From Candidatus Komeilibacteria bacterium (GTDB taxonomy: Bacteria > Patescibacteriota > Patescibacteriia > UBA1558 > GWA2-36-10): a stretch of DNA of 34,800 nt. Within the stretch, counting starts at the first letter, position 1, and every line of letters begins with the position of its first letter. This document shows positions 5,334 through 24,751 of the stretch, one piece after another. Under the pieces are notes generated by a model, which did not search any database, had not been told where the DNA came from, and saw only the letters and a list, made by a program, of their open reading frames with translations. The stretch covers positions 1 to 34,800 of the forward strand of contig JABHYW010000059.1 in the NCBI GenBank assembly GCA_018656655.1, read 5' to 3'. The position numbers and the translations under genes are program-made.

Positions 5334-6497
5334 ATGCAATTTCATTTGGTAGAAGATTACAAAAAAATACATTTTTCACAAGGACTTTTGTCTTTATGGT
5401 CTGGTAAAATATTACTTGATTTCGGTCTTAATATTTTCGGTCTTTTTTTGCCAATTATTTTGTATCAGGCCTATGGTAATACAAATCTCTTGATTGCTTG
5501 GTTTATTTCTCATTCCCTAGGATATTTTTTACTAGCTCCTTTAGGAGGACAATTAATGAATAAAATAGGTATTCGCAAGAGTCTTTACATTGGAGTTTTG
5601 TTTAGAATCCCTTATTTTCTTGCTTTTTATCATTTTGCATCCAATCCAATACTTTTTGCCGTTATTGCATCTTTGTCATTGATTATTATTCGCAGTACTT
5701 TCTGGTTGCCATTCTTAACAGATAGTGCTAAGTTCTCTAGTCGAAAAAATAGAGGCAAACAATTTAGTGTTTTATTTTCTATATCATCACTGTTGGCTAT
5801 TATAGCGCCAGTTTTAGCTGGATTTTTGATGAATAAATGGGGCTTTACATTAGTGACCATAGTATCAATGATAATTAGCATTGCTTCCATGGTACCATTT
5901 TTATTTTTACCTAAGACAAAAGAAACTCTGGCTTGGACTTATGGAGAAACTTTTAAATATTTTTTCCATCCTTTTAATAGACGGATGGTCGGAGCCTATA
6001 TGGCAGATGGAGCAGTCGGTATAGTTAATGGAGTTTTCTGGCCTTTATTTTTGTTTTTTCTATTAGATGGAAAATATAATGCTATGGGCATGATTACAGG
6101 AGCTATACTTTTAGCAGGCTTAGTAATTCGTTTAATAGTTGGTAATTTTTTAGATAAATTTGAAAAATTAAAATTGGTTCGAATAGGCACAATTCTTAAT
6201 TCTAGTGCTTGGTTAATTAAAACAATTGTAGTTTCTGCTCTGCATGTATTTTTGGCTTCCCTTTATCATACTATTGCCATTATAGTATTGCGTACCTCAC
6301 TTGATACACTAGTTTATGAAAAAGCAGCCGACCGAGGACATTATATTGATGAATATACATTGATTAAAGAAATGGCTATTCATTTTGGTAAGATATTGAT
6401 ACTAGTGCTTATAGCGGGAATGTTATTTTTCTTTCCGCTTCAAGTTACTTTTATAATTGCAGCAGTGTTTACTTTATTTGTAAATCTACTTAAATAA
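5334..6497 (+). CDS. MFS-type transporter
   Basis: Polytopic ~12-helix protein; APVLAGFLMNKWG motif shared with its paralog at 7106. Confidence 0.75.
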   Translation: MQFHLVEDYKKIHFSQGLLSLWSGKILLDFGLNIFGLFLPIILYQAYGNTNLLIAWFISHSLGYFLLAPLGGQLMNKIGIRKSLYIGVLFRIPYFLAFYHFASNPILFAVIASLSLIIIRSTFWLPFLTDSAKFSSRKNRGKQFSVLFSISSLLAIIAPVLAGFLMNKWGFTLVTIVSMIISIASMVPFLFLPKTKETLAWTYGETFKYFFHPFNRRMVGAYMADGAVGIVNGVFWPLFLFFLLDGKYNAMGMITGAILLAGLVIRLIVGNFLDKFEKLKLVRIGTILNSSAWLIKTIVVSALHVFLASLYHTIAIIVLRTSLDTLVYEKAADRGHYIDEYTLIKEMAIHFGKILILVLIAGMLFFFPLQVTFIIAAVFTLFVNLLK

Positions 6498-6500
6498 AAT

Positions 6501-7109
6501 ATGGAAGAAATTATATTAACTAAAGATAATAAAGCTCAAGTTTTGCAAACAGCTCTTGAAGTTTTGAATAAAGGGGGAGTGATAGTTTATCCAACTGAAA
6601 CTTCATATGGATTGGGTTGTGATTTTTATAACGAAGCAGCCGTAGCTAAAATTTATAAGATAAAGAATCGCGACAAGAAAAGCCCTTTATCGGTTATAGT
6701 GCCAGATATTATAGCGGCTAGTGCCTTGGTAGAATTTTCTGATAAGTCACGTCGTTTAGCTTTAGAGCATTGGCCAGGACCATTAACTTTGGTTTTGCCC
6801 TATAAATATTGTGAAATTCAACATCATTGTGATAATTATTTAGCTTTGAGAGTTTCTAGTCATCCAATAGCTGATGCTTTGGTTAATAATTTTGCTAAAC
6901 CAATTGTAGCCACTTCAGCTAATATCTCAGATAATCCAGATTCTTATACTCCCGAAGATATTAAAAAACAATTTAAAGATTCAAAAATAAAACCAGATTT
7001 ATTTATTAATGTTGGCGAACTTCCTGAACGTGCTAATTCTACCATTGTAAAATTTGCCGGAAATAAAGGAGAGATTCTTCGCCAAGGGGATATAAAAATA
7101 AAATTATGA
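6501..7109 (+). CDS. tsaC: L-threonylcarbamoyladenylate synthase (TsaC/Sua5/YrdC family)
   Basis: GGVIVYPTETSYGLGCDFYNEAAVAKIYKIKNRDKKSPLSVIV, WPGPLTLVL, LALRVSSHPIADALV, PIVATSANISDNP. Confidence 0.95.
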   Translation: MEEIILTKDNKAQVLQTALEVLNKGGVIVYPTETSYGLGCDFYNEAAVAKIYKIKNRDKKSPLSVIVPDIIAASALVEFSDKSRRLALEHWPGPLTLVLPYKYCEIQHHCDNYLALRVSSHPIADALVNNFAKPIVATSANISDNPDSYTPEDIKKQFKDSKIKPDLFINVGELPERANSTIVKFAGNKGEILRQGDIKIKL

Positions 7110-8281
7110 TGCATTTTATCAAAAGTTTTTTACCACATCACATGAAACGCCAAGTTAAGGAGTTGTTTATTTTTACTACTTTAATCAACTTAGCTTTAGC
7201 ATTGGTGATGATTTTTGAGCCAATTTATCTTTATCAGATTGGCTATAGTCTAAACGATATAATGTTATTTTATTTAATTGTTTATGCTTTGTATTTTTTT
7301 ATTATACCTTTAGGAGCGAAGTTTGCTCGTCGTTATGGCTATGAGATAGCTATGCTGATTGGCTCAATCTTTTTTATAATTTTCTATGTATCTTTATTTT
7401 TTATAGCTAAGTATCCAATTCTATTTTATATAACCCCGTTTATTTTTGCTGTTCAAAAAATGTTTTATTGGCCAGCTTACCATGCTAACTTTGCTAGATT
7501 TTCTGATCAAGAAGAAGAGGGTAAAGAAATTAGTGCTATGACAGTAGCCTCTTCTTTGGTATTTATTGTGGGACCAGTTTTAGCTGGTTTTATTATTTCT
7601 CAATGGGGCTACGGAATATTATTTACCTTGGCTTCTGTTATATTTTTAGCTTCAAATATTCCTACTCTTATTACCAAAGAGAATCTTAAACCAGGTAGTT
7701 TTTCTTATAAAACAGCCTATAAAGATTTATTTAGTAAAGAAAATCGCAAGAGCTTTTTAGCTTATATTGGTTTTGGAGAGGAATTGGTAGCAGTAATTGT
7801 TTGGCCCGTTTTTATTTCCATTGTTGTAACTAATATTTTTGATTTAGGTTTATTAATTACAGCCACCACTTTTATTACTACCTTAGCAGTCTTTTATATT
7901 GGTAAATTAACTGATTCTCAAAATAAGCGAAAGATTTTAGCGTTAGGTTCTTATGTTTATGCTTTAGGTTGGTTTTTTAGAGTATTTATATTTAATACCT
8001 TGGGGGTATTTTTTGTAGATACTTTATCTAGATTAGGTAAAAATATAATTTCAGTTCCTTTGATTGCTATTACTTATGAAAAGGCCAAAGACCAAGAAGC
8101 AAGTAAGAAGAGAGCTGTTATGAGTAGAATTTTATTTTTCGAAATGGGGCTTATTATTGGTAAAATTTTAGCCATTGTAGCTATTTATACGCTTACTCTT
8201 TTTATTGGGGATGAATCTTTAGCATTTAAAATAACTTTCATATTAGCTGGTTCAATGACTCTGCTTTATATGTTGCTCTAA
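7106..8281 (+). CDS. MFS-type transporter, paralog of 5334..6497
   Basis: Polytopic; GPVLAGFIISQWGYGILF aligns with APVLAGFLMNKWGFTLVT. Start overlaps the tsaC stop (ATGA). Confidence 0.75.
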   Translation: MMHFIKSFLPHHMKRQVKELFIFTTLINLALALVMIFEPIYLYQIGYSLNDIMLFYLIVYALYFFIIPLGAKFARRYGYEIAMLIGSIFFIIFYVSLFFIAKYPILFYITPFIFAVQKMFYWPAYHANFARFSDQEEEGKEISAMTVASSLVFIVGPVLAGFIISQWGYGILFTLASVIFLASNIPTLITKENLKPGSFSYKTAYKDLFSKENRKSFLAYIGFGEELVAVIVWPVFISIVVTNIFDLGLLITATTFITTLAVFYIGKLTDSQNKRKILALGSYVYALGWFFRVFIFNTLGVFFVDTLSRLGKNIISVPLIAITYEKAKDQEASKKRAVMSRILFFEMGLIIGKILAIVAIYTLTLFIGDESLAFKITFILAGSMTLLYMLL

Positions 8282-8371: not shown

Positions 8372-9208
8372 ATGAATATAGACGAATTACAATTTTTATT
8401 AAAAAAATATCATCTGACACCAAATAAAATACGTGGTCAGAATTTTTTAGTATCTGATGAGGTCTTAGAAGATATTATTAGTAGTTCAAAAATTTCTAAG
8501 CAAGATTTAATTTTAGAAGTAGGTCCAGGCCTGGGAGCCTTAACGCAGAAATTAACAACCAATTCAAGGCAGGTAGTAGCTTTGGAAATTGATAAGAACC
8601 TTCAAGAGTTACTTAGTACATTAGCTAAACTTAATAAAAATTTAGAAATTATTTGGCAAGATATATTGTCTTTGACAGATGAACAATGGCAAGAACTTTT
8701 GAATAAATACCAAGCTAAAGATTATAAAATTGTAGCTAACATCCCATATTATTTAACTGGGAAATTTGTACGAAAATTTGTTTTAGCTAAGCAGAAACCT
8801 CTTAGTATGACCTTGATGGTTCAGAAAGAAGTGGCTGAGCGTATAATAAATAATAGAAAGCAGAGCCTATTATCGTTGTCAGTAGCTTTCTATGCTAAGA
8901 GTAAAGTAATTCGTATAGTCAATAGAGATAATTTTCATCCTCAGCCGAAAGTAGATTCAGCAATTTTGTATATTTATGACATTAAAGCTTGGGATTATGG
9001 AGTTGATGAAAGAAAAACTTGGCAAATTATCAAACGAGGTTTTGCTTTTAAGAGAAAAAAACTTTTCAACAATCTTTTAAGTGATTCAAGCATAGCTAAA
9101 GATAAATTGAAGAAAATATTTGATGATATAGGCTTAGATTCAAATATCAGAGCAGAAAAATTGAGTACTGATGACTGGTTAAATATAATAAAACATTTAG
9201 AGATTTAA
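8372..9208 (+). CDS. rsmA: 16S rRNA (adenine1518-N6/adenine1519-N6)-dimethyltransferase
   Basis: GQNFLVSDEVLEDII, ILEVGPGLGALTQKL, IVANIPYYLTGKFVRKFV, MVQKEVAERI, HPQPKVDSAIL. Confidence 0.96.
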   Translation: MNIDELQFLLKKYHLTPNKIRGQNFLVSDEVLEDIISSSKISKQDLILEVGPGLGALTQKLTTNSRQVVALEIDKNLQELLSTLAKLNKNLEIIWQDILSLTDEQWQELLNKYQAKDYKIVANIPYYLTGKFVRKFVLAKQKPLSMTLMVQKEVAERIINNRKQSLLSLSVAFYAKSKVIRIVNRDNFHPQPKVDSAILYIYDIKAWDYGVDERKTWQIIKRGFAFKRKKLFNNLLSDSSIAKDKLKKIFDDIGLDSNIRAEKLSTDDWLNIIKHLEI

Positions 9209-9322
9209 CCCCTCTGTCCTTCGACTTACTTCGTTCACTCAGGACATCTCCCCTTGACAGGGGAGAAAACCAAATAAAACTAGCTAAGAAAAAGTCCCCC
9301 TGTTAAGGGGGATTTAGGGTGT
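9206..9322. repeat. REP-like intergenic repeat, locus C (left unit interrupted)
   Basis: TAACCCCTCTGTCCTTCG[ACTTACTTCGTTCACTCA]GGACATCTCCCCTTGACAGGGGAGA ... GTCCCCCTGTTAAGGGGGATTTAGGG. Confidence 0.88.
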
Positions 9323-9341
9323 TAAAAGATTAGATAGTATT

Positions 9342-9370
9342 TTGGTTATTTTATAATTTTGTGTTATAAT
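9342..9370 (+). promoter_or_regulatory. Candidate sigma70-like promoter of T4SS block 1
   Basis: TTGGTT (9342-9347) - 17 nt - TATAAT (9365-9370), just upstream of ATG 9392. Confidence 0.65.
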
Positions 9371-9391
9371 ATACTCAAGTTAATAAAATTG

Positions 9392-10198
9392 ATGATTGAG
9401 AAATTTGATAATAACAACGAGCTAGAATCACTAGATCAAGAGGATTTGACTAGTGATAATTATGCAGCTAATTTAGATAATAATCAGCAAATTTTGCATA
9501 AAGCTCCTAAAGCCCATAAACAGTTAAGGTTCTGGTTTTTTTTAATTTTAGTTGTTTTTGTAGTTTTACTAGTTTCATCACGTTTACGTGATAATATCTA
9601 TGATCCTCTAAAATATGATGTGCCTGATTGGTTAGCTGAACAATTAAGTGAGGAAGAAGAAGCGGCTCAGACTATGGCTGATTTAAAAGAAAATGATACG
9701 GATCAGGATGGTTTAACTGATTATCAAGAAATGTATCAATATTACACTAGTATGTTTTTACCAGATACTGATAGTGATGGCTTTACTGATGCCGAAGAAG
9801 TTAATTTAGGACAAGATCCACTTTGTCCAATAGGGGAATCATGTAATTTGTTAAGATTGATTACTCCAAATACAAAATTAGCTAATATTATAGAGGACGT
9901 AACCCTTGATTCAAATTTAACACTTCAACAGGCGGCTGCGGCTGAGTTTAGAAAATTTTTAGCGGCCAATGGTATGCCTCAAGAAGATCTTGATGATTTA
10001 AGTGACGAGGATTTATTAACTATTTTTAGAATAGTAGAAGAAAGTAAGATTTTAGATGAGGGAAAATTTAATGCCAGTACTACGCCAGATCAAATTAGAG
10101 ATTTTTTATTACTTATGCCTGGTGTAGATTATAATGAAATTAGTTCTATGACTGATGAAGAGCTAATGAAAGTTGCTGAGGATTTATTAGATAAATAA
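9392..10198 (+). CDS. Single-pass membrane protein with thrombospondin type 3-like Ca2+-binding repeats
   Basis: TM helix FWFFLILVVFVVLLV; NDTDQDGLTDYQEMYQYYTSMFLPDTDSDGFTDAEEVNLGQDPLCPIG. Start moved from 9359 (overlaps the -10 box) to 9392. Confidence 0.8.
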   Translation: MIEKFDNNNELESLDQEDLTSDNYAANLDNNQQILHKAPKAHKQLRFWFFLILVVFVVLLVSSRLRDNIYDPLKYDVPDWLAEQLSEEEEAAQTMADLKENDTDQDGLTDYQEMYQYYTSMFLPDTDSDGFTDAEEVNLGQDPLCPIGESCNLLRLITPNTKLANIIEDVTLDSNLTLQQAAAAEFRKFLAANGMPQEDLDDLSDEDLLTIFRIVEESKILDEGKFNASTTPDQIRDFLLLMPGVDYNEISSMTDEELMKVAEDLLDK

Positions 10199-10223: not shown

Positions 10224-13200
10224 ATGATTAGTTACAAAAAATTTATTTTTAGTATTTGCTTGATAATTTTTATTTTGTCAGGGGTAGTTATCCCAGGAAC
10301 AGCCGAAGCTTTTTCGCCAGGTGTGGTTGCAGTTAATAGTGGTAAATGGGTATGGGAACAAGTAGAGAAGGCCTATGATAAAGTTAACGGGCAACTATCG
10401 TCCGATTTAGCTTATAAAACAGTTGAGATGTTTATGAATAGTCTAGCCTATGATGTGGCTACTTATTTAGCTGAAGGTGGACCAGGTGGCGAGCCTTTAT
10501 TCAAAACTGTGCCTATTGGAAAAAGCCTGGCAACTGCCAGAGATAAAGCTCTGGGAGAATTTTTAAGTGAATTAACTGAATTAGGTTTTGATGAATTAGG
10601 AATTGATCTTTGTAGCCCTTCTTTAGAATTAAAATTAACTCTTACTTTAGGTTTAATAGATACTGAAATGCCACCTAGGCCAAGTAATTGCGATTGGAGA
10701 AAATTGCAAAATAATTGGTCAAAATTTGGTGATAATGTACAAGCTGATATTATTAAATTTCAATTAGACCCTAGAAGAAGTGGTGAGACTAGCGCTATAG
10801 AATTTTTTAAAAACATAGTTAGTAAATCGGGTACAGATGTGGGAGCAGCCTTTGCAATAAGTGCAGAAGTAAATAGAAGAAAACTTGAAGCGGAAAAAGT
10901 TGAAGAAATAGAATATTCAGAGTGTCAGGGATATTTAGATACGGCTACAGTTGTTACAGCGTGGACACAAGTTACTTGCATGACTAATATGAATATGTCA
11001 TTTGAGCAGTGGAATTCAGCTATTGAAGCTTCCAGGGTATCTATAGAGGAGAAGAAAAAAGAAGCTGATGGAAGGTTATCTACTATTATGAAAGCCGCTG
11101 GAAATAAATTTCTTGATACCTTTACTTCTAAACTAATGAAGAATTGGATTAAGAGAGGTATGTGGTCATTATTTGGTAGTGATGCTAATTCTACAGATTA
11201 TAGAAATACTCTTCTTGATAGATTAAGAGGTGGGGCTAATATTTTCCAACCTCGTAATGCAGATATTTTTAAAGATTTTAAAACTATAAATATTGAAACT
11301 ATTGAGTCATTTGATTATTTAGATATATTTGCTATTTGTCCCGATCAATTTAGACAGCCAGATAATTGTGTAATGAGTCCAGCGTTTTTACAAGCTATAA
11401 ATAATAAATTAACAATTCAACAGGCTATTGAGCAGGGCATTATAGATGGTAATATGCTTTTGGTGCCTAAAGACGATCCAGTTAATAATAGTAGCAATAA
11501 ATGCTATAGAGATAATCTTTGTTATACTAACTTAGTAAAATTAAGAAAAGCCAATATAATTCCAGTAGGCTGGGAATTAGCTGCGCTAAGAGCGCCAGTT
11601 TCTTTACAGCAAGCTATGGATTGTTTTGAAGATGGTGGAGACTGCATTTTTGGTATTGATGAGACTCGTAATGAGTTTATGGTTGAGGGAAATTTTCATA
11701 ATCCATTTTATCATTTAGTAGATCCAGATTGGGTTTTGAAAGCTCCAACTATACGTTGTGAGGCTTATGCTTTTTCACCTGTATTAGAATCTCCAGACAG
11801 TAGTAATAGACAACGATACTGTGCTGATCCAAAAGTATGCCTACGGGAAGATTCAGACGGAAATTGTATAGAAGATCAATTTAATTATTGTACGCGTAGT
11901 GAAAATATTTGGAATTTTGAAGGTAAAATCTGTGAATCTGGCGAAATATACGCTGGATGCTTAACTTATTCTAATGATGATTTTGGTGTTAATTCATATT
12001 TAGAAAGTAGTTTAGAATATTGCAGTGCCGATCAAGCTGGTTGTCGTCGTCATTCTCAAGAGATTGATGCTTATGGTAATTGGGTTTTAGAAGATATTGA
12101 AGTTGATACTAATGATTTGTTTTTTAATAGACAAGCTAGTGAATGTAATGAGTCTAATGTGGGCTGTAATGAATATATTGCCATGGCCCCTGATACAGGC
12201 GCTAATTTAATACCAAATGGTGATTTTGAAATCTGGAGCACTGCTCCAGATGATTTGCCAGATAGCTTTAGTGGGTTGGCTAGTACTGTTTCAGGAGAAG
12301 GAGTTAATGACTCTAACGCCATTCTAGCTGCTTTTCGTCGGCCAGCAGGAGGAAGTCATATATCAGCTTGTCAACGGATTTCATCTTTAAGTCCACATAC
12401 TAATTATACAGTATCTGTAGACGTTAAGTTGAATATGACTGATGAAGAGCGAGGTGATGCTCCTGCTCGCATTACTTTAGATAGTTGTAATGATGCCAAT
12501 GGTAATCCAGGAAATATTTTTTCACCAGATGACTCTATGGAGATAAGTAATGATGATCCAAACGCACCGCCAGATGAGGCAAGTGCATATTTACAAATTG
12601 GTGATATAAGCGGAAATTATACTAAATTTTCAGGAACTTTTAATACTAATAATAGTGTAACATGCCATTCTATTTGTATTGGCTCTAATTATGGGAATGA
12701 GTTACCTCATTATTTTGATAATTTAAAATTAGAAATGGTAACTCAGCCGTCAGCTGTTTCCACATATACTGCTTATGGCGATGGAGCTCGTATATATATG
12801 AATGATGACACAATGATGTGTACAGCTGATGAAGTTGGTTGTCAGGGTTATATTCCAAATAATGGCGATCCAATGATTCCAGCTGTTATTGTTCAAGACG
12901 ACCTATGTCCGGCAGAGTGTGTTGGTTATGAGACATTTACTGAGCAAGTAGATATTTTTGATATTATAGAAGGTGATAATTTAGTAGAATATTATAATTT
13001 TATACCTAATACTGCTCAAGAATGTCCAGCTCAGGAAATAGGTTGTGAAGAATTTACAAACCTCGATGTAGTGGCTGAAGGAGGCGAAGGTAGAGAATAT
13101 TTCACATATTTGAGACAATGTGTTGAGGAAAGTGAAGGAACAGTGTTCTATACTTGGGAGGGTACTGATGTAGCTGGTTATCAAATTAAAACTTGGTATG

Positions 13201-16200
13201 CTTTAGAAAGTAATCTTGATGATGCGCCATGTACTAATATGGATCCAGCAGGCGGTGTTTGTCAGGATGATTCAGCTGCTGAAGATTCTAATGTAGCGGT
13301 TTGTGGAGCAGAGACTCCTGATAATCCAGTTGATGACCCAGTTAATGATCCAAATTGTAGAGTATTCTTTGATGAAGCTGGGGCTGAGCATTATAGATTC
13401 CAAGACAGAGTAATTTTTGCTACAGATAATTGTCATGATTATCGTCGAAGCTTAACAGGTCAAGTTTATAAAGCTGTGCCAGAGGAAAGTATTCATTGTC
13501 AGGAAACTAATAATAATTGTAGATCCTATTATGGTAATAATGCTAATAACATACGTGAAGTATTGGCAGATAATTTTGAAGATGGTACTTATGAGCTTTG
13601 GCAATCAATTGGAGATCCACTTGATATATCTAATGTATCTTTAAATGACAATGGCCATTCTTTGGAAGCACAGACAGGGCAGGCATTTATGCGCGATGTT
13701 AGAAATGTAAGTCTGCAAAATGATAAACAATATAAAATTTCTTGGTGGATGAGAAATAATGCTATATTAAATTCGTTTACTATGAGTCTGGCAGGGGCTG
13801 ATGAAGATGACAATGTACTTGATGAGCTATTAATTGATCCAATCCTAGATAGTACTTGGCAAAATATTGAGCCAGGACGTTGGCATTATTATACAGCTTC
13901 TGTGCATATAGACGATTTAGATAATTTAGAGGCAGATTTAATAAATAAATTAGATATTCAAATAAATACAGACGCTACTTTAGATGATCAAAGTTTGTAT
14001 ATAGATAATTTTACCATCAAAGAAATAAGTAATAATTTTTCCGTAGTTAGAAATTCTTGGGATACACCACTAGCCTGTAATCAACCATATGATGGCTATC
14101 ATTTGGGATGTCAATCATATGTGGATTTAAATGGGCAAGCATTTGACCTTAAATCTTTTGATCATTTATGTAGAGAAAATACAATTGGCTGTATGCCAGT
14201 TATAGCTACTCATAATTCTACTAATCCTTTTGAAGAAACTTTTAATGAAGGTGATTATTCTGAACTAACAGTCTTAGAAGATAATTTAGAATATTTAGTT
14301 CCTAATCCTAATAATTATTGTCCACAAGCTGCTAAAGGTTGTTCAGTTTTAGGTATTCCAGATAGGTTAGATGAAACACAATTTACTTCTGTTTATAAAA
14401 TTAATGATCCAGATAAATATTCTTCAATAATGTGTGATTCAACTGGCTTAAATTGTGCGGAATATAATACGGCTAAAGGAGTCTTTTACCTAAAAGATCC
14501 AGGAGCTGAAACTTGTACTTACCAACAAAATGTTTTCATTGAAGGTAGTCGCTTGTCTGGTTGGTTTAAGACAGCTACCTTAGGCGATGAAATTCCATTG
14601 GGTTGTGCAGATACAGATGATAATTATGATACAGACGATGATGGGTATTATGATGTTAGAGAATTGGTATTAGCTAATGATTATTGTAGTGTTTCCGAAT
14701 CAGATGTTAATCAATTATTCTATTTTACCAAAGATGACTGTGACGAGGCTAACGGATATTGGAATAATTTCTTAATGGCCGCTCAATGTCCAGCTAGTGA
14801 GAATCTTTGTACAGCTTTTAGAGATCCAGTCGATCCAGTGGCTTGTGATCCTAAAGGAATAAATTTTAGTTTTATAGATTTTGATGGTCATTGTAGAGAT
14901 AATCCTACATTATATACCAATCAATCAACTTGTGAATCTGCCTATCCGGCTATACCAGGCGAGCCAAGTGCTTGGATTTCACCTAGTAAAGATGGTTATT
15001 GTAGTGACATAAATTATAATAATGCCAGAGATTGTAATAATAACGGGGAAACTTGGACAGCTTATTGTAAAAGTTATTATTACTATAATGATGAAAATAT
15101 TGATGAAACTAGTTGTGATGGCGTAGTTGATAGGCAAGATGGTTGCGTATTATTTTATGAGGCTAATTCTTGGAATGGTGAACATAGTCAATCTACTGTC
15201 ATTTATGATGCACAAGAAACTTACGAGGATATAGAAGCTTCTAATGCAAGCGCTAGTCCAATAGCTTGTAATCCAGATTTTGATCCAACTTGTAATTTAG
15301 ACTCAAATAAACTAATAAAAGTAAGTAAAGATAGACAATGTGCTGAATGGTTAGCCTGTAAATCTTCTACTGCCTCTTTTGATGATAATACAAATGAATA
15401 TAAGATTATTTGTGATGACTTAGATGCTTGTCTTGAATTTCAATATGACACAGATAGTAATACTACTAAATGTAAAAAGTGGGGTTCCTATGATGAAGAT
15501 GTTGAAGCACTTACTTTTGAAAAATATCAATCTCGTGACACTGGCTTGAGAAGACATATGTCATGGAGTGATAAAGAATATACTGGATATTCTATACCAA
15601 ATATGTTGGCAGTTAAGGATTTGCAAGTTTATAATTTTGGGACTACTACAGATAATCCAATTAGTCGCTTAACTTACGCTGTAACAGATAGTGTAGATAT
15701 TACTATTGGAAATTATCACTCAAGTTGTGTAGATCCAGATGATTCATCAATTCCTCTAGTTGAAGAAACTTGTTCCACTGAAATAAATACAGATGGTGAT
15801 TATACCTTTATAGGTGAATGTCATAATCGTATATGTTGGATAAATCCAAGGGTAAATGAAATTAGTACTTCTGCTTACGCTATAGAAGCTCGGGCTTATT
15901 CTGTAGCTGATGCACCTTTTCCAAGTGCTATTGATGGAGAGGATTTAGAGCGGTCGGTAAAATATACAGCGGCTAATATTTGTAGTATTGGTGAAAATTC
16001 TTGCGAAAGTTCATTTAAAAAAGTGACTTATGGCAATGGTCAAAAGACCTTATATTATCCAGAATCCTTACCAGACGGCGAGACAATACCACCAGGTATT
16101 TGTACTTCGGGGCAGATTTTAGAAGATGAAGAACCACATTCATGTGAATTTAATTATAATTGCGATACTAATGAGAGTGATGGTACTTCTAGGCGTGATG

Positions 16201-18785
16201 GTATGTGTTCTATTAAGACTGAAGAAATTATTTTTAGAAACTGGCCAGGTATTTGTTTAGAGTATGATACTAATAATCCAGTGGCTAGTGACGGAGAAAG
16301 TTCATACTATTGTAATCAATGGTATCCAGCTCAGAAAATTAAGGGAACAGCTAGTTTATATAATAATTATAGAGGAGCTGGTTATTTTGAACAAAATGGA
16401 CGAGATGCCTTATTCTGTGCAGTAGCTGAGGCTTATATTACAGCAGAAGATAGGTACTATTGTGGTTATTTTAATGATAATGAATTTTATAATCAGTGCA
16501 ATGTTTTACTTAAGGTACCAGCTGGATCTAGAGTTAATCTTGATAGTGCAGCTGAATGGCCTGCATTATTAGAGTCAGGGGCTTGGTTGGAAGCTGATAA
16601 TAATGACCTGCATCCATCGCATCTGGATGTAGGTAGAGATATTATTATGCCTAGTGATAAATATACTAGATCTGATAACTTTAATGATATTTATCCCGTA
16701 CAAGATAGTTTCATGGATATTATAAATGAAATGTTTGATGCTACTGATACCACAGAAGATATTCATCGTTTTTATTGGGATGAAGATGTTAGAGCTGATG
16801 GTCATGATAGTAGTAGTACTTTTGTGACTATTCCAGATGAAACTTATAGTTTCACAGAGGGACATTGTGAAACTTATGCCGATCCACTTGAATGTAATAA
16901 CCCTGATAATGAGCATGAGGTTTATAGTCGTAAATGGAGGAGTGGGCAATGTGGTTTGCATAAGTGGCGCAACAGAGAAATATTTTGTAATCCTTTAGAG
17001 TCTAATTATTATGTAGATTTGAATAGTGGAGAAAATAATTCTGTCCCTTCCGCGCCAGTTTATGAGGGCGCTTGTGGAGAAAATTGTAAATTCACTAGTG
17101 CGGATGTACTTAACGAAAATCATGGGCGAGGTTGTTTGCAGGATGATACTTTATCTCTGGCCTATTCATCGGTTTTAGATGATTATACAGAGGCTTCTAC
17201 CTTTGATGTGGAGGAGTGTTTAGCTACGGTGTCTACTTCGGAAGAAGAAGTCTTGTGCTCTTTTATAGCCTGTGTTGAATCATTAGAGCTTAATCAAGGC
17301 AATGATCATCTTTGCTCTCTTTATGATACTTGTTTAAGTGCTACATATTCTCAGTTTACTAATCTGTCACTGCTTTCTGAGCTGGTATATAATCAAATTA
17401 TGAGTTGTTTTTCCGATGGTGGTACTGGCTATAATCCAAATAATCCTCCAGAATATGGCGACGGCATAGGGCCAGAAGTAGATATATATGATTTTGAGGA
17501 AGAGGAACAGTGTCTTACAGACAATCAAGCTGCTTTTACAGATCAGTTCACAAATCAAGTTGATTGGGCTGCTCTAGAATTGTTTTGTTCTCAATGTACA
17601 TATGAAGACCCGGGAGATCATACTACTATTACCAATGGCACAGATTGTGACGGGGTAAATTCTTTAGATTGTTATCAACAATGTCGTATCATTACTCATT
17701 TAGATAGTGAGGGTCTACTATCAGCTGTACGTACTGATATTTGGTGGAGGAGTGCTGCTCCCCCAGCAGATTCTAGGGTTCGTACAGTTCCTTGGCAATC
17801 TTGGTATTGGAAGAGTCAAACAGATGGCTATATAATTTCTGATCCAGCAGCTGCTGACGATGATGAGGTCTTGTATGGTAGTATCCTTGGTTTATCTGAT
17901 CCAGGAAATTTCTCTCATTTTGGTGCTGGCCTAGGCCGTTTCACTAATGATACTATTGTGGCTACTAGGGTGCCTTATTATAATGTTAGTAATAATATTA
18001 CAGCGGCTACTTTCTTTAATTATATGAGTAGTCCGAACAGTGACTTGGCAGTTAATTTAAATACTGCTTTGTCAGAAATGCAAGATTTATTCTTTAGAGT
18101 TTATAATTTGCAATGGATAGCAGAAGATAGTGCATATCAGCTCTATGGAGATGAAGCAACAAATTTAGGAGGTGGAAATGGTACTAATCCGTTTGCTGGT
18201 CCAGAATATAGCCCGAGAATTTTAGCAACTTGTGGAGATGCTCTTTGTGAGACTAGAGACAATGAAGGTAATGTAACGGCAGTGGCCGAGGGCATAACTA
18301 TTAATGGAGTTAATGGCGGAAATTTACAAGGCCTTAATTCTTCATTATTTGTTAACGTTAAATTTTTCTATCATGCTCATCCAGATCACATGCCAGTTTA
18401 TAGCGTGGATGTTGATTGGGGCGATACTCCAGGAAATAATTTCTCTTTTACGCCTGGTAAATATAAAAATTCTTTACCAGCAAAATGGTGTAATCCTATA
18501 TTACTTGCACCAGGAGATGTTAGTCCACATACAACAGACAGTGAACCGCAGTTCATGGGATTTGCGGGAACTGAAGACGCTTGTCAAGATGGTTACAAAA
18601 TTTTCTACCATGATTATATGTATGATGACACGGGAGCTTATGCTTGTAACGGTGCTTTTGGCACACCTGCTAAACCAAATATAGCAAACGCTTCATGTTA
18701 TCAACCTCGTGTCAGAGTAACTGATAATTGGATGGTGGAAACATTAATGCCATTTGATGGTTGGATAGTGGTCCATGATGGTTAA
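10224..18785 (+). CDS. Giant (2853 aa) secreted Cys-rich protein; two CBM/galactose-binding-like beta-sandwich regions, C-x6-C motif array, TSP3-like motif, C-terminal PKD-like region
   Basis: Signal peptide FSICLIIFILSGVVIPGTAEA; about 109 Cys by manual count; NLIPNGDFEIW... and ADNFEDGTYELW... beta-sandwich starts; DTDDNYDTDDDGYYDVREL; FFYHAHPDHMPVYSVDVDWGD ... CYQPRVRVTDNW near the C-terminus. One uninterrupted frame. Confidence 0.88.
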   Translation: MISYKKFIFSICLIIFILSGVVIPGTAEAFSPGVVAVNSGKWVWEQVEKAYDKVNGQLSSDLAYKTVEMFMNSLAYDVATYLAEGGPGGEPLFKTVPIGKSLATARDKALGEFLSELTELGFDELGIDLCSPSLELKLTLTLGLIDTEMPPRPSNCDWRKLQNNWSKFGDNVQADIIKFQLDPRRSGETSAIEFFKNIVSKSGTDVGAAFAISAEVNRRKLEAEKVEEIEYSECQGYLDTATVVTAWTQVTCMTNMNMSFEQWNSAIEASRVSIEEKKKEADGRLSTIMKAAGNKFLDTFTSKLMKNWIKRGMWSLFGSDANSTDYRNTLLDRLRGGANIFQPRNADIFKDFKTINIETIESFDYLDIFAICPDQFRQPDNCVMSPAFLQAINNKLTIQQAIEQGIIDGNMLLVPKDDPVNNSSNKCYRDNLCYTNLVKLRKANIIPVGWELAALRAPVSLQQAMDCFEDGGDCIFGIDETRNEFMVEGNFHNPFYHLVDPDWVLKAPTIRCEAYAFSPVLESPDSSNRQRYCADPKVCLREDSDGNCIEDQFNYCTRSENIWNFEGKICESGEIYAGCLTYSNDDFGVNSYLESSLEYCSADQAGCRRHSQEIDAYGNWVLEDIEVDTNDLFFNRQASECNESNVGCNEYIAMAPDTGANLIPNGDFEIWSTAPDDLPDSFSGLASTVSGEGVNDSNAILAAFRRPAGGSHISACQRISSLSPHTNYTVSVDVKLNMTDEERGDAPARITLDSCNDANGNPGNIFSPDDSMEISNDDPNAPPDEASAYLQIGDISGNYTKFSGTFNTNNSVTCHSICIGSNYGNELPHYFDNLKLEMVTQPSAVSTYTAYGDGARIYMNDDTMMCTADEVGCQGYIPNNGDPMIPAVIVQDDLCPAECVGYETFTEQVDIFDIIEGDNLVEYYNFIPNTAQECPAQEIGCEEFTNLDVVAEGGEGREYFTYLRQCVEESEGTVFYTWEGTDVAGYQIKTWYALESNLDDAPCTNMDPAGGVCQDDSAAEDSNVAVCGAETPDNPVDDPVNDPNCRVFFDEAGAEHYRFQDRVIFATDNCHDYRRSLTGQVYKAVPEESIHCQETNNNCRSYYGNNANNIREVLADNFEDGTYELWQSIGDPLDISNVSLNDNGHSLEAQTGQAFMRDVRNVSLQNDKQYKISWWMRNNAILNSFTMSLAGADEDDNVLDELLIDPILDSTWQNIEPGRWHYYTASVHIDDLDNLEADLINKLDIQINTDATLDDQSLYIDNFTIKEISNNFSVVRNSWDTPLACNQPYDGYHLGCQSYVDLNGQAFDLKSFDHLCRENTIGCMPVIATHNSTNPFEETFNEGDYSELTVLEDNLEYLVPNPNNYCPQAAKGCSVLGIPDRLDETQFTSVYKINDPDKYSSIMCDSTGLNCAEYNTAKGVFYLKDPGAETCTYQQNVFIEGSRLSGWFKTATLGDEIPLGCADTDDNYDTDDDGYYDVRELVLANDYCSVSESDVNQLFYFTKDDCDEANGYWNNFLMAAQCPASENLCTAFRDPVDPVACDPKGINFSFIDFDGHCRDNPTLYTNQSTCESAYPAIPGEPSAWISPSKDGYCSDINYNNARDCNNNGETWTAYCKSYYYYNDENIDETSCDGVVDRQDGCVLFYEANSWNGEHSQSTVIYDAQETYEDIEASNASASPIACNPDFDPTCNLDSNKLIKVSKDRQCAEWLACKSSTASFDDNTNEYKIICDDLDACLEFQYDTDSNTTKCKKWGSYDEDVEALTFEKYQSRDTGLRRHMSWSDKEYTGYSIPNMLAVKDLQVYNFGTTTDNPISRLTYAVTDSVDITIGNYHSSCVDPDDSSIPLVEETCSTEINTDGDYTFIGECHNRICWINPRVNEISTSAYAIEARAYSVADAPFPSAIDGEDLERSVKYTAANICSIGENSCESSFKKVTYGNGQKTLYYPESLPDGETIPPGICTSGQILEDEEPHSCEFNYNCDTNESDGTSRRDGMCSIKTEEIIFRNWPGICLEYDTNNPVASDGESSYYCNQWYPAQKIKGTASLYNNYRGAGYFEQNGRDALFCAVAEAYITAEDRYYCGYFNDNEFYNQCNVLLKVPAGSRVNLDSAAEWPALLESGAWLEADNNDLHPSHLDVGRDIIMPSDKYTRSDNFNDIYPVQDSFMDIINEMFDATDTTEDIHRFYWDEDVRADGHDSSSTFVTIPDETYSFTEGHCETYADPLECNNPDNEHEVYSRKWRSGQCGLHKWRNREIFCNPLESNYYVDLNSGENNSVPSAPVYEGACGENCKFTSADVLNENHGRGCLQDDTLSLAYSSVLDDYTEASTFDVEECLATVSTSEEEVLCSFIACVESLELNQGNDHLCSLYDTCLSATYSQFTNLSLLSELVYNQIMSCFSDGGTGYNPNNPPEYGDGIGPEVDIYDFEEEEQCLTDNQAAFTDQFTNQVDWAALELFCSQCTYEDPGDHTTITNGTDCDGVNSLDCYQQCRIITHLDSEGLLSAVRTDIWWRSAAPPADSRVRTVPWQSWYWKSQTDGYIISDPAAADDDEVLYGSILGLSDPGNFSHFGAGLGRFTNDTIVATRVPYYNVSNNITAATFFNYMSSPNSDLAVNLNTALSEMQDLFFRVYNLQWIAEDSAYQLYGDEATNLGGGNGTNPFAGPEYSPRILATCGDALCETRDNEGNVTAVAEGITINGVNGGNLQGLNSSLFVNVKFFYHAHPDHMPVYSVDVDWGDTPGNNFSFTPGKYKNSLPAKWCNPILLAPGDVSPHTTDSEPQFMGFAGTEDACQDGYKIFYHDYMYDDTGAYACNGAFGTPAKPNIANASCYQPRVRVTDNWMVETLMPFDGWIVVHDG

Positions 18786-18811: not shown

Positions 18812-21800
18812 ATGCAAATTAAAAGTTATCACTTAAAATTAAAATGGCTTTACTTAGTAAGTATCTTTACTATAAGTTTGGGTTTTCCTCTTAGGGCCTT
18901 TGCAGGTGTTACGGATTTTCTAAGATTAATGGCTCAATTTATTTGGGGATATTGGATTATACCATTAACTTGGCTTCTACAGCTGGAGCTGGAGTTACTT
19001 AGATTTGTCGCTAGCTATAATAATTTTACAAGTGAAGGAGGAGTAATTACTGGTTGGATAGCTCTTAGGGATTTATCCAACATGTTTTTTATAATAATTC
19101 TTTTGGTAATTGCTTTTGCTACAATACTTAGAATTTCCAGTTATGGTTATCAGCAGTTGTTAAAAAAGACAATTATTGTTGCTATATTAATTAATTTTTC
19201 TAAAACAATTGTTGGATTTTTGATAGACATTGTACAAGTAGTAATGCTTACATTTATTGCCGCTGTTGATAATGTTATGGCTGGTGGAGTGGTAATAGCC
19301 CTTGGTTTGCAAGGTATAATGACTATAGCTAAAAATGCAGTTGGAGCAGACTTGGCGGGACCAAAGTTAGATGATTATATTGTAGCTCTCGTAATGTCAT
19401 CTATATTTATACAGATTTTAGTTGTAGTCATAGGAGTGATGGTTATGATGTTGATTATGAGAATTGTAGCTCTTTGGGTAGCAATTATCTTAGCTCCCTT
19501 AGCTTTTATATCTAGTATATTTCCTGCTACAAAATCTTTTTATTCAAAATGGACTAAAGAATTCGGAGCTAATTTAGTAAGTGGTCCAATGTTAGCTTTT
19601 TTCTTGTGGCTGACTCTTACTATTGTTGGTAATGGAGATGCCTATAAAAGTTTTACTGATGGTGAAGATATTGCAGGTAGTGGAGCTACAGAATTTTTAG
19701 GAACTAGCAATATGGTAAATTATATAGTAGCCATTGCTTTACTGTTGACTGGTATTAAGCAGGCAGCTGCTTCAGGTGCTGCAGGTGCTAATTTTGCTAG
19801 CAAAGGTATGAGTATGATTCAGGATAGGGCTAGTAAAATGGCTCGGCGTTATCCAGGTGCTGCTTTTACAAGAGCAAAGGCGGGAATTGCCAGAGGTTTG
19901 ATTAGGAGCGAAGATGGTTCAGCTAAGTCTTTGACAAAGGGTATGGGTATGCTTGCTCAAAGCAAATTTGGTAAAAGTATAAAGCTAGATAAACTAGCTA
20001 GTGGAGTAACTACCGGAGCTACTCGATTTGATGCCAAAGCCGATGAATTAAAAAGTACTGATAGCAGATGGAAACAATACGCCGGTAAAACTATGAGTGG
20101 TGTTAGAAGTGCCAAATGGAATCGAATACCAGGGTATGGAGGTGCATTTCAAAGAGAAGCACAGAAAAGTATGGGCGAAGCTCCGGCCAAGGAAGCTGAA
20201 TTTGATAGTGAGGATACAAAAAATGTATTAGATCAACATAAGTCAAGTTTTCATGAGTCTAAAAAGACTCTGACAGGAAATAGATTCCAGAAGTGGTGGT
20301 CTAAGGCAACATCTTTAGGGGGAGCAGGGTCTCAAGATGCAGCTTATTGGCAGAATGAACTTAAAGAGGGTAGAATGGATACTTCTGAAAAAGCGCAAGC
20401 TGGTGTTCAAGCTGCTAAGGGAGTGCATAATCAAGGATTAGCTGATGACATACATAATCATAATCCAGGTGTTTATGACAGTGAAAAAGAAATAAATAGA
20501 GATATTGAAAGAAAGAGTTATAAGGGTATAATGTCGGGGTGGTCAGCAGAATCAGCTAATGGTCATAATGCAGAATTATTTTTAAATACTCTGCGTAAAC
20601 ATAAAGATTATAAAAATGGGGATGTGGGTAGAGCTGTTAATAACCTTGAGTCACAATCTAGAATAGCGTGGGGAGAAGTTTTAAAGGAAAGTACAGAAAA
20701 TGTAATTCAAGATACAGACCATAAAGGTGATGGTTCAATGCTTAGAAGAGACGAGGCAGGCGAGTTAATTCATGGTAATAATGGTGAATTAGAAATGAAC
20801 AATGAATTAATGCAAGGTCTTATGGCAGATATAGTGAATGTTTATCCTGGTGGTGCTGATGAAATTGCGCAGATGATTGTAGCTAAAATTAATAAGGAAT
20901 TGCAAGAAATTAAGATTCCAGACGGAGCTATTACTAGCTTAACAAAAGTAAAAGGAGAAACAGACGATGAATTTAAAGGCAGAGAAGATAGCTGGAAAGA
21001 ATCTATTAGGCGGCATGCTTTAGATGAAGATCATGAAGATTATATAGATGAGAATACACATAATGATAATAAGAGAATAGCAAGTAGGTATTTTACATCT
21101 GACGAATTAGAAGGCCAAAGAGCCAAAATTGAAGCTGAGAGGGAGGATATGAATAATGAAGAAGAGAGTGATAGGCTTTTGAGTATGGTTAATGGTCATT
21201 CTATGATGACAATAAAAACTGAAGCTGCCGATTTAGAAAGAGCTGCCCAGCATCAACTTGATAAAGCAGGTAATCTTGAGCCTAGGCAGCCAGTTTTAGA
21301 TACTGTAGCAGAGCCAGAAGAAGCAGATATAATTACTAGGGCTAAGAAATTAGTAGCTGCGGAACCGGAATCTAAGTCTAAGATTGTTGGTGCCGACGGG
21401 CAGAAAATAAAAAGCGAGGAGTCTACAGAAGACAGAATAGAAGGTAAAAAAGCTCAAGCTAGAGATGAATTAATGGAAGAGGGACGAGTTGAGGCTGCAG
21501 ATAAGCACGCTGAAGCTGAAGAAAAATATGAAGTTGATAAAGAGGCTTATAAGGCAGATATAGACAATCTTGTGAAGGAGATGGAAGAAGCTATAAAGGG
21601 TGTAAATAATAATAGTACAGCAAAGGAATTAGATGATTTAGATAAGCTGCAAGGTACTACTACAGATCCAAAAAAATTAGAACAATTAACGAAGCGAACA
21701 AATTATTTATTACATTTACAAAATATAAGACGTAGAAAAATCTTAAATTCAGAAGTTTCTCATAATGATAATCATGCCTCTAGAGCATCATTAAAAGATG

Positions 21801-22141
21801 CTACCGATGGATCAGATTATTCAAGGATATTTGAAGCTGATATTGGTAAGGATGGAATAAGACATTTAGTTCAAGAGTTAGCTAGAGTAGGTGATCAAAA
21901 TCAGCAAAAACAATTTCTTAAAACAGCAAATCCTGAACAGCTTCAACTTTTTGCAGATGCAGTAGTAAGTAGTGGACAAAAATTAGCTAAGCCAGTAACA
22001 GATAGTTTAACTGCAAATAATAAATTAAGAGTGTACAGAGAAATTTATGTTTCAACTGCAATGGAAACTGGCACATCAGAACGTAAGGCTCGAAGGGAAG
22101 CTGCTGATAAGGGCTTGAATGAATTACGGCATGGGGCTTAA
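18812..22141 (+). CDS. VirB6/TrbL-like polytopic T4SS protein with very long hydrophilic C-terminal tail
   Basis: Signal/TM then several TM helices up to about residue 325 (IVALWVAIILAPLAFISSIFPATKSFYSKWTKEFGANLVSGPMLAFFLWLTLTIVG); the remaining ~780 aa is charged and Ala/Lys/Glu-rich. Confidence 0.8.
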   Translation: MQIKSYHLKLKWLYLVSIFTISLGFPLRAFAGVTDFLRLMAQFIWGYWIIPLTWLLQLELELLRFVASYNNFTSEGGVITGWIALRDLSNMFFIIILLVIAFATILRISSYGYQQLLKKTIIVAILINFSKTIVGFLIDIVQVVMLTFIAAVDNVMAGGVVIALGLQGIMTIAKNAVGADLAGPKLDDYIVALVMSSIFIQILVVVIGVMVMMLIMRIVALWVAIILAPLAFISSIFPATKSFYSKWTKEFGANLVSGPMLAFFLWLTLTIVGNGDAYKSFTDGEDIAGSGATEFLGTSNMVNYIVAIALLLTGIKQAAASGAAGANFASKGMSMIQDRASKMARRYPGAAFTRAKAGIARGLIRSEDGSAKSLTKGMGMLAQSKFGKSIKLDKLASGVTTGATRFDAKADELKSTDSRWKQYAGKTMSGVRSAKWNRIPGYGGAFQREAQKSMGEAPAKEAEFDSEDTKNVLDQHKSSFHESKKTLTGNRFQKWWSKATSLGGAGSQDAAYWQNELKEGRMDTSEKAQAGVQAAKGVHNQGLADDIHNHNPGVYDSEKEINRDIERKSYKGIMSGWSAESANGHNAELFLNTLRKHKDYKNGDVGRAVNNLESQSRIAWGEVLKESTENVIQDTDHKGDGSMLRRDEAGELIHGNNGELEMNNELMQGLMADIVNVYPGGADEIAQMIVAKINKELQEIKIPDGAITSLTKVKGETDDEFKGREDSWKESIRRHALDEDHEDYIDENTHNDNKRIASRYFTSDELEGQRAKIEAEREDMNNEEESDRLLSMVNGHSMMTIKTEAADLERAAQHQLDKAGNLEPRQPVLDTVAEPEEADIITRAKKLVAAEPESKSKIVGADGQKIKSEESTEDRIEGKKAQARDELMEEGRVEAADKHAEAEEKYEVDKEAYKADIDNLVKEMEEAIKGVNNNSTAKELDDLDKLQGTTTDPKKLEQLTKRTNYLLHLQNIRRRKILNSEVSHNDNHASRASLKDATDGSDYSRIFEADIGKDGIRHLVQELARVGDQNQQKQFLKTANPEQLQLFADAVVSSGQKLAKPVTDSLTANNKLRVYREIYVSTAMETGTSERKARREAADKGLNELRHGA

Positions 22142-22163: not shown

Positions 22164-23420
22164 ATGAAACTAATACAATTAAATGCATTGCCTGAAGAAG
22201 TGCAAGATTTTATTTGGGGTATTATGTCAGATTTTAATTATACTTTATTTAATGATCCATCTTTAAATTTTACACAATTTGAATTTATCAATACTTTACA
22301 GGATGACATTATTCTTAAAAAAAAGAATATTTTGGATCTGCCAAAAGAATTAGAAAAAATGCCGGGTAAATTTCAAGGAGATTTTAGAGAATTAGCTCTT
22401 AAAATAGCCATAGAAATATTTTGGCCATTGCAAGATTATTTAGGAGGCGTAGATAGGTTGATTCTACGTTTAGGAGGTAAAGTTCCCAAATTAGTTCCTC
22501 TAAAGAAAAAGGCTTCAAAAAATAAAGATTTTTTAGGAGATACTTTTCAAGGCAAAGTAAAAGATTTAATTAGCCAACACAAAGAATTTAAAGGCTTACA
22601 ACTAACACCTGACAAAATATTTAATAAAAAAGGTAGTCTAATTAATCCAAGTGTACAGAATTGGATTGACGATTATATTCATTTTTTAGGCGCGGGTAAA
22701 CATAGTTCTTTGGAAAGAGCTAAATATATTTCTAAAAGTCCGAATTCTTTAAAATTAGATGATAAATATAAAGATAGCTTACGTTTTTTATTATTATCTT
22801 ATGATCAAGGAGTTGAGCTTTATTTTGATAAATCTGAGAAATTGTTAGTTATCAAAGATCAGCCTGCTAGAAAGTTGCTAAATAAAGAAATTAAAGATGA
22901 TAAACTTGGCTTTGATAATATTTTAATAGATTTTAAAAAAGATCTAAGGAGTTTGCAAGAGGGATTATTTCCTAGTGATATTATAATGTCTGAAGCCGAG
23001 GGAGATATAAATAAAGTTCGTGATATATTGTGGCAGTCAATCGGCATGGGAGACAAGGATAAGGTCATGGGTTGTTTAGCTTTATTAATATCTAGAAAGT
23101 CTTTTGATTCTATGATTAAAAAGGATAGTAGATTTAAAAGTATTTTAAAGCGATTTATAGGTATAAAATATGGACAAGGCATGGAAGTATCTTGGGATGA
23201 GAATATGGACCAGCTGATAAGCAGGCGATTTTTTTTAGAGATGCTTTTAGTAGATAAATTAGCCTTAGATGAAAAATCACTTTTTGTAACTATTTTTTAT
23301 ATGACAAATATAATACCAGATTCAGGTCAGCTTATATATTTTGACAAGCAAGATCAAAAATTTAAATGGCGAGCTATACAAGTCACAGGTAATAAATTTG
23401 CTTGGGTAGATAGCTTATAA
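22164..23420 (+). CDS. Hypothetical soluble protein (418 aa), last gene of block 1
   Basis: Long ORF 22 nt downstream of the VirB6-like gene on the same strand; no recognised motif, no TM. Confidence 0.75.
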   Translation: MKLIQLNALPEEVQDFIWGIMSDFNYTLFNDPSLNFTQFEFINTLQDDIILKKKNILDLPKELEKMPGKFQGDFRELALKIAIEIFWPLQDYLGGVDRLILRLGGKVPKLVPLKKKASKNKDFLGDTFQGKVKDLISQHKEFKGLQLTPDKIFNKKGSLINPSVQNWIDDYIHFLGAGKHSSLERAKYISKSPNSLKLDDKYKDSLRFLLLSYDQGVELYFDKSEKLLVIKDQPARKLLNKEIKDDKLGFDNILIDFKKDLRSLQEGLFPSDIIMSEAEGDINKVRDILWQSIGMGDKDKVMGCLALLISRKSFDSMIKKDSRFKSILKRFIGIKYGQGMEVSWDENMDQLISRRFFLEMLLVDKLALDEKSLFVTIFYMTNIIPDSGQLIYFDKQDQKFKWRAIQVTGNKFAWVDSL

Positions 23421-23517
23421 AATCCCTCCTAACCTCCCTTTGACAAGGGAGGAATATAGTCTAAACAAAAAAGTCCCCCTGGACGCCGAAGGTGGTGGGG
23501 ATTTAGGGGGTTAGGCT
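23418..23517. repeat. REP-like intergenic repeat, locus D, between convergent genes
   Basis: TAAAATCCCTCCTAACCTCCCTTTGACAAGGGAGG ... GTCCCCCTGGACGCCGAAGGTGGTGGGGATTTAGGGGGTTA. Confidence 0.85.
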
Positions 23518-24706
23518 ATTTTTTGTTTTGCCAAACTGTGATTTGTCGTTTTACTTTTTGTCCTGGGCGATTATAAATTATGTCTTTATCTAATTTATAT
23601 TCAAAACCAAGTTGGGAGATAATTTTTTTATCTAAGGTATAAATATCTTGGCCAGCTATATTAAATACTGGAAATACAAATACTATCATAGCCTTGGGTG
23701 ATAATATTTTTTTGAATTTTTCAAAAGCTAGCGTATATAATATTTGAAGTTCGTCTTTTATTTTATTTATATCAGAAGTTTTATTTAGACGAGCAATTAG
23801 ACGAGCATCACCCATAAATGGCTCAGTTACAATTGTATTTATAGAATTAGCATCTAATTTTTTATCAATATTTTTAATATCAGACTCTAATATTTTCAGA
23901 TTAGCTTTAGCCTTAAAATTTTCTAGTAGCCAGTTTAAGTTTTCTGTAGTTTCTGTAACAGACCTAGGATTGATATCACTACCATATATATTTTGATAAC
24001 CCAAGAGTATAGCTTCTTGAAGTACTGTACCAGAACCACAGAAAGGATCTAATAAATTTTTGTTTTTATTTTCTCCAGCCTCTCCGCTTTGGTCAAGACC
24101 TTCGGCTAGATTAACCATCATCTGAGCTACCTTGGGAGGTAGCATGCCGCTTTTATCATCACGATGAGGACGTTTCATATCACGCCAACCATAGCGTACA
24201 AAATCTTGGACAGCCTCTGTCAAAGCTAGCATGTATTTATTTTCATGTTTTATAATCAATAGCTCGTTACCAATTAATTTATTTTTTGAAACTACAACAG
24301 AAGAGAGGATGGCATCTTGACTAGTTACTAGACGGCTTTTATATTTATTTTCTTTTAGTAATTTTTTCAATTCAAAGGCTATTTTTTGAATAGATTTATC
24401 ATTACTATCATTGTATAAACTAAAGCCAAAATTATTTTTTTTGTCTGGTTTAAGATTTTTCTCTAAAATATCATACCACAGAAAAACATCTAGATTACTA
24501 AGCTTATCTAGGCTTTGATTATAGCGAGCAATTTTAATTGTACCGCCTAAAATATTGATTAAATCCTTTGATTCTTTGTTGGTGTTGGCTAGTACAAAAT
24601 CAGGGCCAATAAGCTCTATTTGGTCGTTTTTGGAGCTTAAAACAGCCTTTAATTCTTCTTTGGCTAGGTCAGGAGACTGACCCAACATAAATAGGTATTT
24701 ATTCAT
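23516..24706 (-). CDS. TRM11/UPF0020-family (THUMP-MTase-like) RNA methyltransferase
   Basis: DPFCGSGTVLQEAILLGYQNIYGSDINPRSVTETTENLNWL (SAM motif) and VTEPFMGDARLIARL at the motif IV position. Confidence 0.8.
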   Translation of the reverse strand: MNKYLFMLGQSPDLAKEELKAVLSSKNDQIELIGPDFVLANTNKESKDLINILGGTIKIARYNQSLDKLSNLDVFLWYDILEKNLKPDKKNNFGFSLYNDSNDKSIQKIAFELKKLLKENKYKSRLVTSQDAILSSVVVSKNKLIGNELLIIKHENKYMLALTEAVQDFVRYGWRDMKRPHRDDKSGMLPPKVAQMMVNLAEGLDQSGEAGENKNKNLLDPFCGSGTVLQEAILLGYQNIYGSDINPRSVTETTENLNWLLENFKAKANLKILESDIKNIDKKLDANSINTIVTEPFMGDARLIARLNKTSDINKIKDELQILYTLAFEKFKKILSPKAMIVFVFPVFNIAGQDIYTLDKKIISQLGFEYKLDKDIIYNRPGQKVKRQITVWQNKK

Positions 24707-24751
24707 AGGTATATGATAGTTTAAATAGTTATTTTACGCAATGTATAGACC

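Follow-up and report, generated by a model that had tools for sequence, protein, structure and literature searches.

TraN, encoded with the outer-membrane T4SSs of F-type plasmids, is an exported, cysteine-rich protein with 22 conserved cysteines, all of them possibly paired; its body is conserved, and a variable tip determines which recipient receptor is used (PMC9246713). In Gram-positive conjugation systems, surface proteins such as PrgB of pCF10 and TIE of pLS20 promote donor–recipient contact without a pilus (PMC8092201). According to the available part of a dedicated survey (PMC12102498), surface adhesins replace pili in Gram-positive T4SSs, and the patescibacterial T4SS, which mostly comes without a relaxase, derives from FATA-type conjugation machines and is encoded by a cluster with VirB6, PrgI (VirB3) and VirB4; the same part reports that no adhesin was detected for this T4SS and no PrgB-type adhesin in Patescibacteria. 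In the selection and holding of hosts by Patescibacteria, type IV pili have been implicated, and in one cultured lineage the T4SS is essential, namely for epibiotic growth of S. epibionticum (Saccharibacteria) (PMC10633639). Large cysteine-rich exported proteins with a suggested role in attachment are also known from another CPR lineage, the Peribacteria, where they are encoded in a multi-gene cluster with no T4SS linkage reported in the available part of the source (PMC4736985); large cysteine-rich extracellular proteins in CPR are therefore not new as an idea.

The giant gene and its T4SS cluster

The window analysed here, meaning the whole stretch of 34,800 nucleotides from a Candidatus Komeilibacteria genome, contains an intact ORF with an ATG start (10224–18785, + strand) for a protein of 2853 amino acids, hereafter the giant, with 109 cysteines (3.8%), a mass of 318 kDa and a pI of 4.2. 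Coordinates, length and cysteine count given in a preliminary description, made from the sequence alone, were reproduced exactly on re-computation. The sole hydrophobic segment at the threshold used spans residues 1–32, in agreement with the signal peptide and the lack of a C-terminal TM anchor described earlier; the predicted signal peptide (residues 1–29, 10224–10310, +; cleavage between TAEA and FS) has similar counterparts at the N-termini of homologues. Residue 12, a cysteine, falls inside it, leaving 108 cysteines in the mature chain. A chance ORF is excluded because stop-free homologues of ∼2500–3700 amino acids occupy the equivalent locus across a whole class (see below). The gene takes up 1.1% of the assembled genome (∼1 Mb), and more than 50 apparent disulfides are notable as protein biochemistry.

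Immediately upstream, after a gap of 25 bp, lies the gene for a TSP3-repeat protein with one N-terminal TM segment (9359–10198, +; 279 amino acids; Pfam TSP3_bac, 8.7e-7), a conserved partner of the giant. Downstream, after 26 bp, follows the gene for a VirB6/TrbL-like polytopic membrane protein (18812–22141, +; 1109 amino acids). The Pfam family TrbL/VirB6 (PF04610) is matched by 7 of the 28 members of this gene's family (best, 9e-8), the window copy itself falling short, and the earlier placement of the giant directly upstream of a VirB6-like gene is thereby confirmed. This VirB6-like protein has no cysteine at all, as against its cysteine-rich neighbour, and carries a very long C-terminal tail that differs among relatives. 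It is followed by the conserved protein p418 (22164–23420, +), by some 3.4 kb with other, unrelated genes (23516–26664), and then by p472 (26792–28210, +), a conserved T4SS-cluster protein located directly before PrgI in four relatives (L055, L058, L066 and L070), by a PrgI/VirB3 homologue (28214–28690, +; PF12666, 7.1e-11) and by VirB4 (28780–31391, +). The latter is present as two ORFs, an N-terminal part (28780–29460) and the ATPase (29460–31391; PF19044, 9.4e-28). The N-terminal part may correspond to a TrsD-like protein, a type common in Patescibacteria according to the available part of the T4SS survey (PMC12102498). In L055, L058 and L066 the set is uninterrupted from giant–VirB6 to p472, PrgI and, in two of them, VirB4.

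Conservation of this arrangement was assessed on 33 complete giants. The TSP3 gene is found within 300 bp upstream of 30 of them, and VirB6 within 250 bp downstream of 23 and within 3.2 kb of 28. The remaining five loci show no VirB6 in the region examined (one of the five stops at a contig edge), so that the giant–VirB6 linkage is not absolute. Homologues beside VirB6 and VirB4 genes, whose absence would have refuted the preliminary description, do exist, and its association of the giant with a T4SS cluster is sustained by a linkage to VirB6, PrgI and VirB4, the patescibacterial FATA-type set, that is conserved across loci.

Other features of the region also recur. In nearly all loci read phylum-wide (window 8372–10198; L186–L218), the rRNA methyltransferase gene rsmA is located just upstream of the set formed by TSP3 gene, slot and VirB6, which is an old linkage of a housekeeping gene with a T4SS cluster. 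Further upstream (5334–8281), two MFS transporters of similar length lie on either side of a Sua5/YrdC-like gene, as recognized by eye, and the same arrangement is seen between leuS and rsmA in several relatives.

Distribution of the giant and small proteins in the same slot

A homologue was found in 51 of 53 related genomes. A contig search with the single giant protein gave no match; one with an alignment succeeded. The named relatives are Komeili-, Uhr-, Falkow-, Buchanan-, Kerfeld-, Kuenen- and Magasanikbacteria, which make up the class usually called ABY1, very small bacteria that depend on hosts. The profile search against CPR genomes suggested in the preliminary description was run with the conserved core, which matches 167 of the 192 genomes of the class (151 of 166 among good genomes). 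In a sample of 380 genomes from the phylum, 33 match, all 33 in this class, and no homologue of the core was found outside it. The giant is therefore a signature of the whole class and not a peculiarity of the window's genome, a point that had been missed. Complete homologues (n = 33) contain 88–152 cysteines. In two relatives (L042 and L034) the giant appears as two consecutive ORFs, of 2170 + 643 and 1290 + 1403 amino acids, which are either true splits or assembly frameshifts. An open frame of 26141 amino acids in another genome (G479, contig C8) is an artefact, since masked N bases make up 24,000 of its codons.

VirB6 profile matches are widespread outside ABY1, and other classes keep the order RsmA – TSP3/1-TM protein – X – VirB6 – PrgI – VirB4, where X is a small, cysteine-poor, exported protein, mostly of 280–800 amino acids. 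The N-terminus of the giant aligns with X over ∼195 columns at low identity (hhalign, alignment A4 against A8: probability 96.7, E = 4e-10) and with a five-member X subgroup (A9) at a probability of 96.5; the control comparison with VirB6 gave 0.1. A further X subgroup (A10) reaches a probability of only 16, which is not significant alone, and phmmer links the X groups together. The X profile retrieved new members, and in 9 of the 11 held-out genomes examined the match (280–880 amino acids) lies directly upstream of VirB6. Some X proteins have fn3 or SdrD_B domains at their end.

Judged from these alignments, the slot upstream of VirB6 exists phylum-wide, occupied by a small protein with which the giant has its N-terminal domain in common, which also went unnoticed in the preliminary description. 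Most simply, X would be an ancient member of the T4SS cluster, with an ectodomain that was enlarged in ABY1. Since X shares both the slot and the N-terminal domain with it, the giant can best be understood as the ABY1 form of a T4SS-cluster protein found throughout the phylum, its ectodomain having grown about fivefold to become a disulfide scaffold with fast-diverging CBM-type jelly rolls. Two loci outside ABY1 also encode unusually large exported proteins a short way upstream of the VirB6 region: L195 (6696–12572, −) has one of 1959 amino acids with 27 cysteines, and L215 (4574–11090, −) two of 1112 and 1054 amino acids with 20 and 34 cysteines. They have no detectable similarity to the giant and are possibly independent enlargements.

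Domain architecture and apparent cysteine pairing

The mature chain begins with an N-terminal domain (residues 30–500, 10311–11723, +), the first part of which is helical; its residues ∼60–280, including the conserved pair C130/C156, are the portion in common with the small slot proteins of other classes. Searches of solved structures with the N-terminal profiles returned chance matches only, and a PHROGs search gave no match. Cys-rich module 1 (residues 503–652, 11730–12179, +), with near-invariant cysteines from 512 to 648 and a partly confident model, is followed by jelly roll 1 (residues 655–845, 12186–12758, +), which has a CBM-type fold (Foldseek probability 1.00 to CBM16/CBM22/CBM4; the table holds no query positions, and the match is placed on the beta-rich segment 655–845 from the model). 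Cys-rich module 2 (residues 856–1108, 12789–13547, +) is the most conserved core in the alignment (A1). Jelly roll 2 (residues 1110–1270, 13551–14033, +) matches CBM_4_9 (PF02018, 2e-7) over residues 1115–1230 with 31.9 bits against a gathering score of 25.9; 13 of 16 homologues also match this family. The alignment further delimits Cys-rich module 3 (residues 1276–1464, 14049–14615, +), a variable insertion with gaps and low conservation (residues 1465–1610, 14616–15053, +), Cys-rich module 4 (residues 1611–1760, 15054–15503, +) and a moderately conserved region (residues 1768–2100, 15525–16523, +) that includes Cys-rich module 5 (∼1906–2100). A hypervariable region (residues 2101–2460, 16524–17603, +) precedes a putative C-terminal PKD/Ig-like domain with insertions (residues 2690–2853, 18291–18782, +; alignment A5), which has a DWGDG-like motif, weak Foldseek matches to PKD domains (2y72, probability 0.82, E = 0.15) and no Pfam match; the C-terminal model comes closest to the Deinococcus HPI S-layer protein (E = 6.5e-4). 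The models are only partly confident, and in the C-terminal half the last 190 residues alone can be interpreted. The parts of the protein diverge at different rates: within the genus, identity is 62–82% in Cys modules 1–4 (65–82% in module 2), 23–53% in the jelly rolls (23–52% in jelly roll 1) and 21–42% in the hypervariable region.

The earlier characterization of the product as disulfide-rich is borne out by the behaviour of its cysteines. About 40 cysteine columns are invariant across the class, and the number of cysteines after the signal peptide is even in 33/33 complete homologues, as expected if every cysteine is disulfide-paired. Their counts take 18 different values, and the family tree requires a minimum of 24 changes in number, none of which alters parity. 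Among further relatives 29 of 33 have an even number; the signal-peptide cut was automatic here and may account for some of the four odd counts. Variable cysteine columns are gained and lost pairwise, many with r = 1, and 57% of them have a partner at r > 0.8, compared with 2–21% for ten other residues. Control proteins also show even counts (LeuS, 11/13; RsmA, 23/37; VirB6, 19/27); this control is not a clean 50% because the counts are low and related, and the tree-based count of 24 changes is therefore the better measure.

A check for DsbA/DsbB/VKOR-type oxidases, likewise suggested beforehand, revealed DsbA-like and VKOR genes side by side in the window's genome (G000, contig C21, 2284–3169). 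Across the class, DsbA-like proteins are found in 92 of 95 genomes and VKOR in 43 of 95. Parity, pairing and the presence of these genes constitute strong, though indirect, evidence for export and oxidation of the giant. The motif CX6C occurs 11 times in the giant versus 4.1 expected, and evidence that the Cys modules are homologous repeats is mixed.

Possible function and comparison with known systems

We lean towards the view that the giant is the ABY1 version of a phylum-wide exported T4SS-cluster protein and serves as a host-contact ectodomain at the T4SS. It would be exported by Sec through its signal peptide, and its 108 mature cysteines would be oxidised to ∼54 disulfides, presumably by DsbA-like and VKOR enzymes. 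The helical N-terminal domain, which is conserved, would hold it at the envelope beside the VirB6 and TSP3 membrane proteins, and the remaining 2300 residues would reach outward as a rigid disulfide scaffold, displaying two CBM-type jelly rolls and hypervariable segments and ending in the PKD/Ig-like domain. The giant would then keep the target (host) cell in place where the T4SS opens, probably via surface glycans. A role as a surface appendage or in host contact, as already suggested in the preliminary description, fits because a conserved scaffold beside the T4SS presents fast-diverging domains of a carbohydrate-binding type. Also in its favour are the adhesin-type domains (fn3 or SdrD_B) of slot proteins elsewhere, the surface adhesins of Gram-positive T4SSs and the essential part of the T4SS in epibiotic growth of Saccharibacteria. 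Counting against it, VKOR is present in fewer than half of the class genomes, linkage to VirB6 is not absolute, the N-terminal homology covers ∼195 columns at low identity with little support from subgroup A10, the structure models are partly confident, and a jelly roll of the CBM type can have a structural role alone.

The near-universal presence of the giant in the class, the high conservation of its Cys modules and the best match of its C-terminal model would also suit a structural protein of the cell envelope, S-layer-like or wall-coating, whose scaffold and jelly rolls attach to polysaccharide of the cell itself (CBM domains would suit binding of own glycans) and make the envelope more rigid around the T4SS, host recognition playing no part. 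We consider this rather unlikely: the giant keeps to the T4SS slot and has small homologues among T4SS-cluster proteins, Pfam finds no S-layer domain in it, and the jelly rolls and variable segments outpace the scaffold in divergence, with which changing external ligands fit better. Its signal peptide, helical N-terminal domain and place directly upstream of VirB6/TrbL could instead indicate a T4SS subunit that forms a channel or spacer outside the cell, resembling a VirB5/TrbJ stalk or conduit to which disulfide modules have been added; it would bridge the distance to the host, and adhesion would come second. The same gene order is seen in virB5–virB6 and trbJ–trbL, and the N-terminus of one slot protein (L205) weakly matches TrbJ (19.2 bits, E = 5e-4). 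Membership of the VirB5/TrbJ family, suggested by this position and this match, was rejected, the profiles NF010448 (TrbJ) and PF07996 (VirB5) being over cut-off in 0 of 115 class genomes and absent from the matches listed at the mapped giant loci; with the N-terminal profiles also without a solved-structure match, a stalk or conduit seems distinctly unlikely. Finally, a large exported protein encoded with a secretion system might reach the host as an effector or toxin, or be secreted as an enzyme that acts on its own, and CBM domains are common in glycoside hydrolases. The Sec signal peptide, the conservation of the whole chain across the class and the lack of any catalytic or toxin domain in Pfam or NCBIfam, as well as of an enzyme domain at the N-terminus of the small homologues in other classes, make this highly improbable.

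For the holding of hosts, the giant is a specific candidate present throughout a class, and other classes have a homologue of it in the same position; cultured Saccharibacteria or further tractable members would make its role accessible to study, provided that they carry the small form. More tentatively, the slot upstream of virB6 might be the host-recognition module of the patescibacterial T4SS, combining a conserved domain for docking with ectodomains (fn3, SdrD_B, Ig-like) that differ by lineage and can be swapped, and inflated in ABY1 to a 300-kDa disulfide-welded tether; the slot would in that case contribute to host range throughout the phylum.

In the open-access literature searched, no account was found of the class-wide giant, of its linkage to the T4SS or of the slot shared phylum-wide, and the available part of the patescibacterial T4SS survey (PMC12102498) holds no description of the giant or of the small slot family upstream of VirB6, although its VirB6, PrgI and VirB4 cluster is the same as that of the giant. 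The large cysteine-rich proteins of Peribacteria resemble the giant in their CPR origin and suggested role; they differ in lineage, in their multi-gene cluster and, as far as the available part of the source goes (PMC4736985), in T4SS linkage. Of the adhesins of better-studied systems, PrgB and TIE show no domain match to it: no thioester, Cna or polymer-adhesin domain was found by Pfam in the giant or 16 homologues, CBM_4_9 being the only match. Like TraN, the giant is a predicted exported, cysteine-rich protein encoded with a T4SS, and its many conserved cysteines are apparently paired. Unlike TraN, it belongs to a FATA-type cluster and contains jelly rolls of the CBM type; its N-terminal domain is another one, and its cysteines number about five times those of TraN. 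A Pfam scan gave no TraN match up to E = 1 for the giant and up to E = 0.01 for 16 homologues. With no match to TraN, PrgB-type or other adhesin families, the relation to TraN is one of functional analogy only, as had been anticipated, and the giant would work like TraN, PrgB or TIE while belonging to none of these families.
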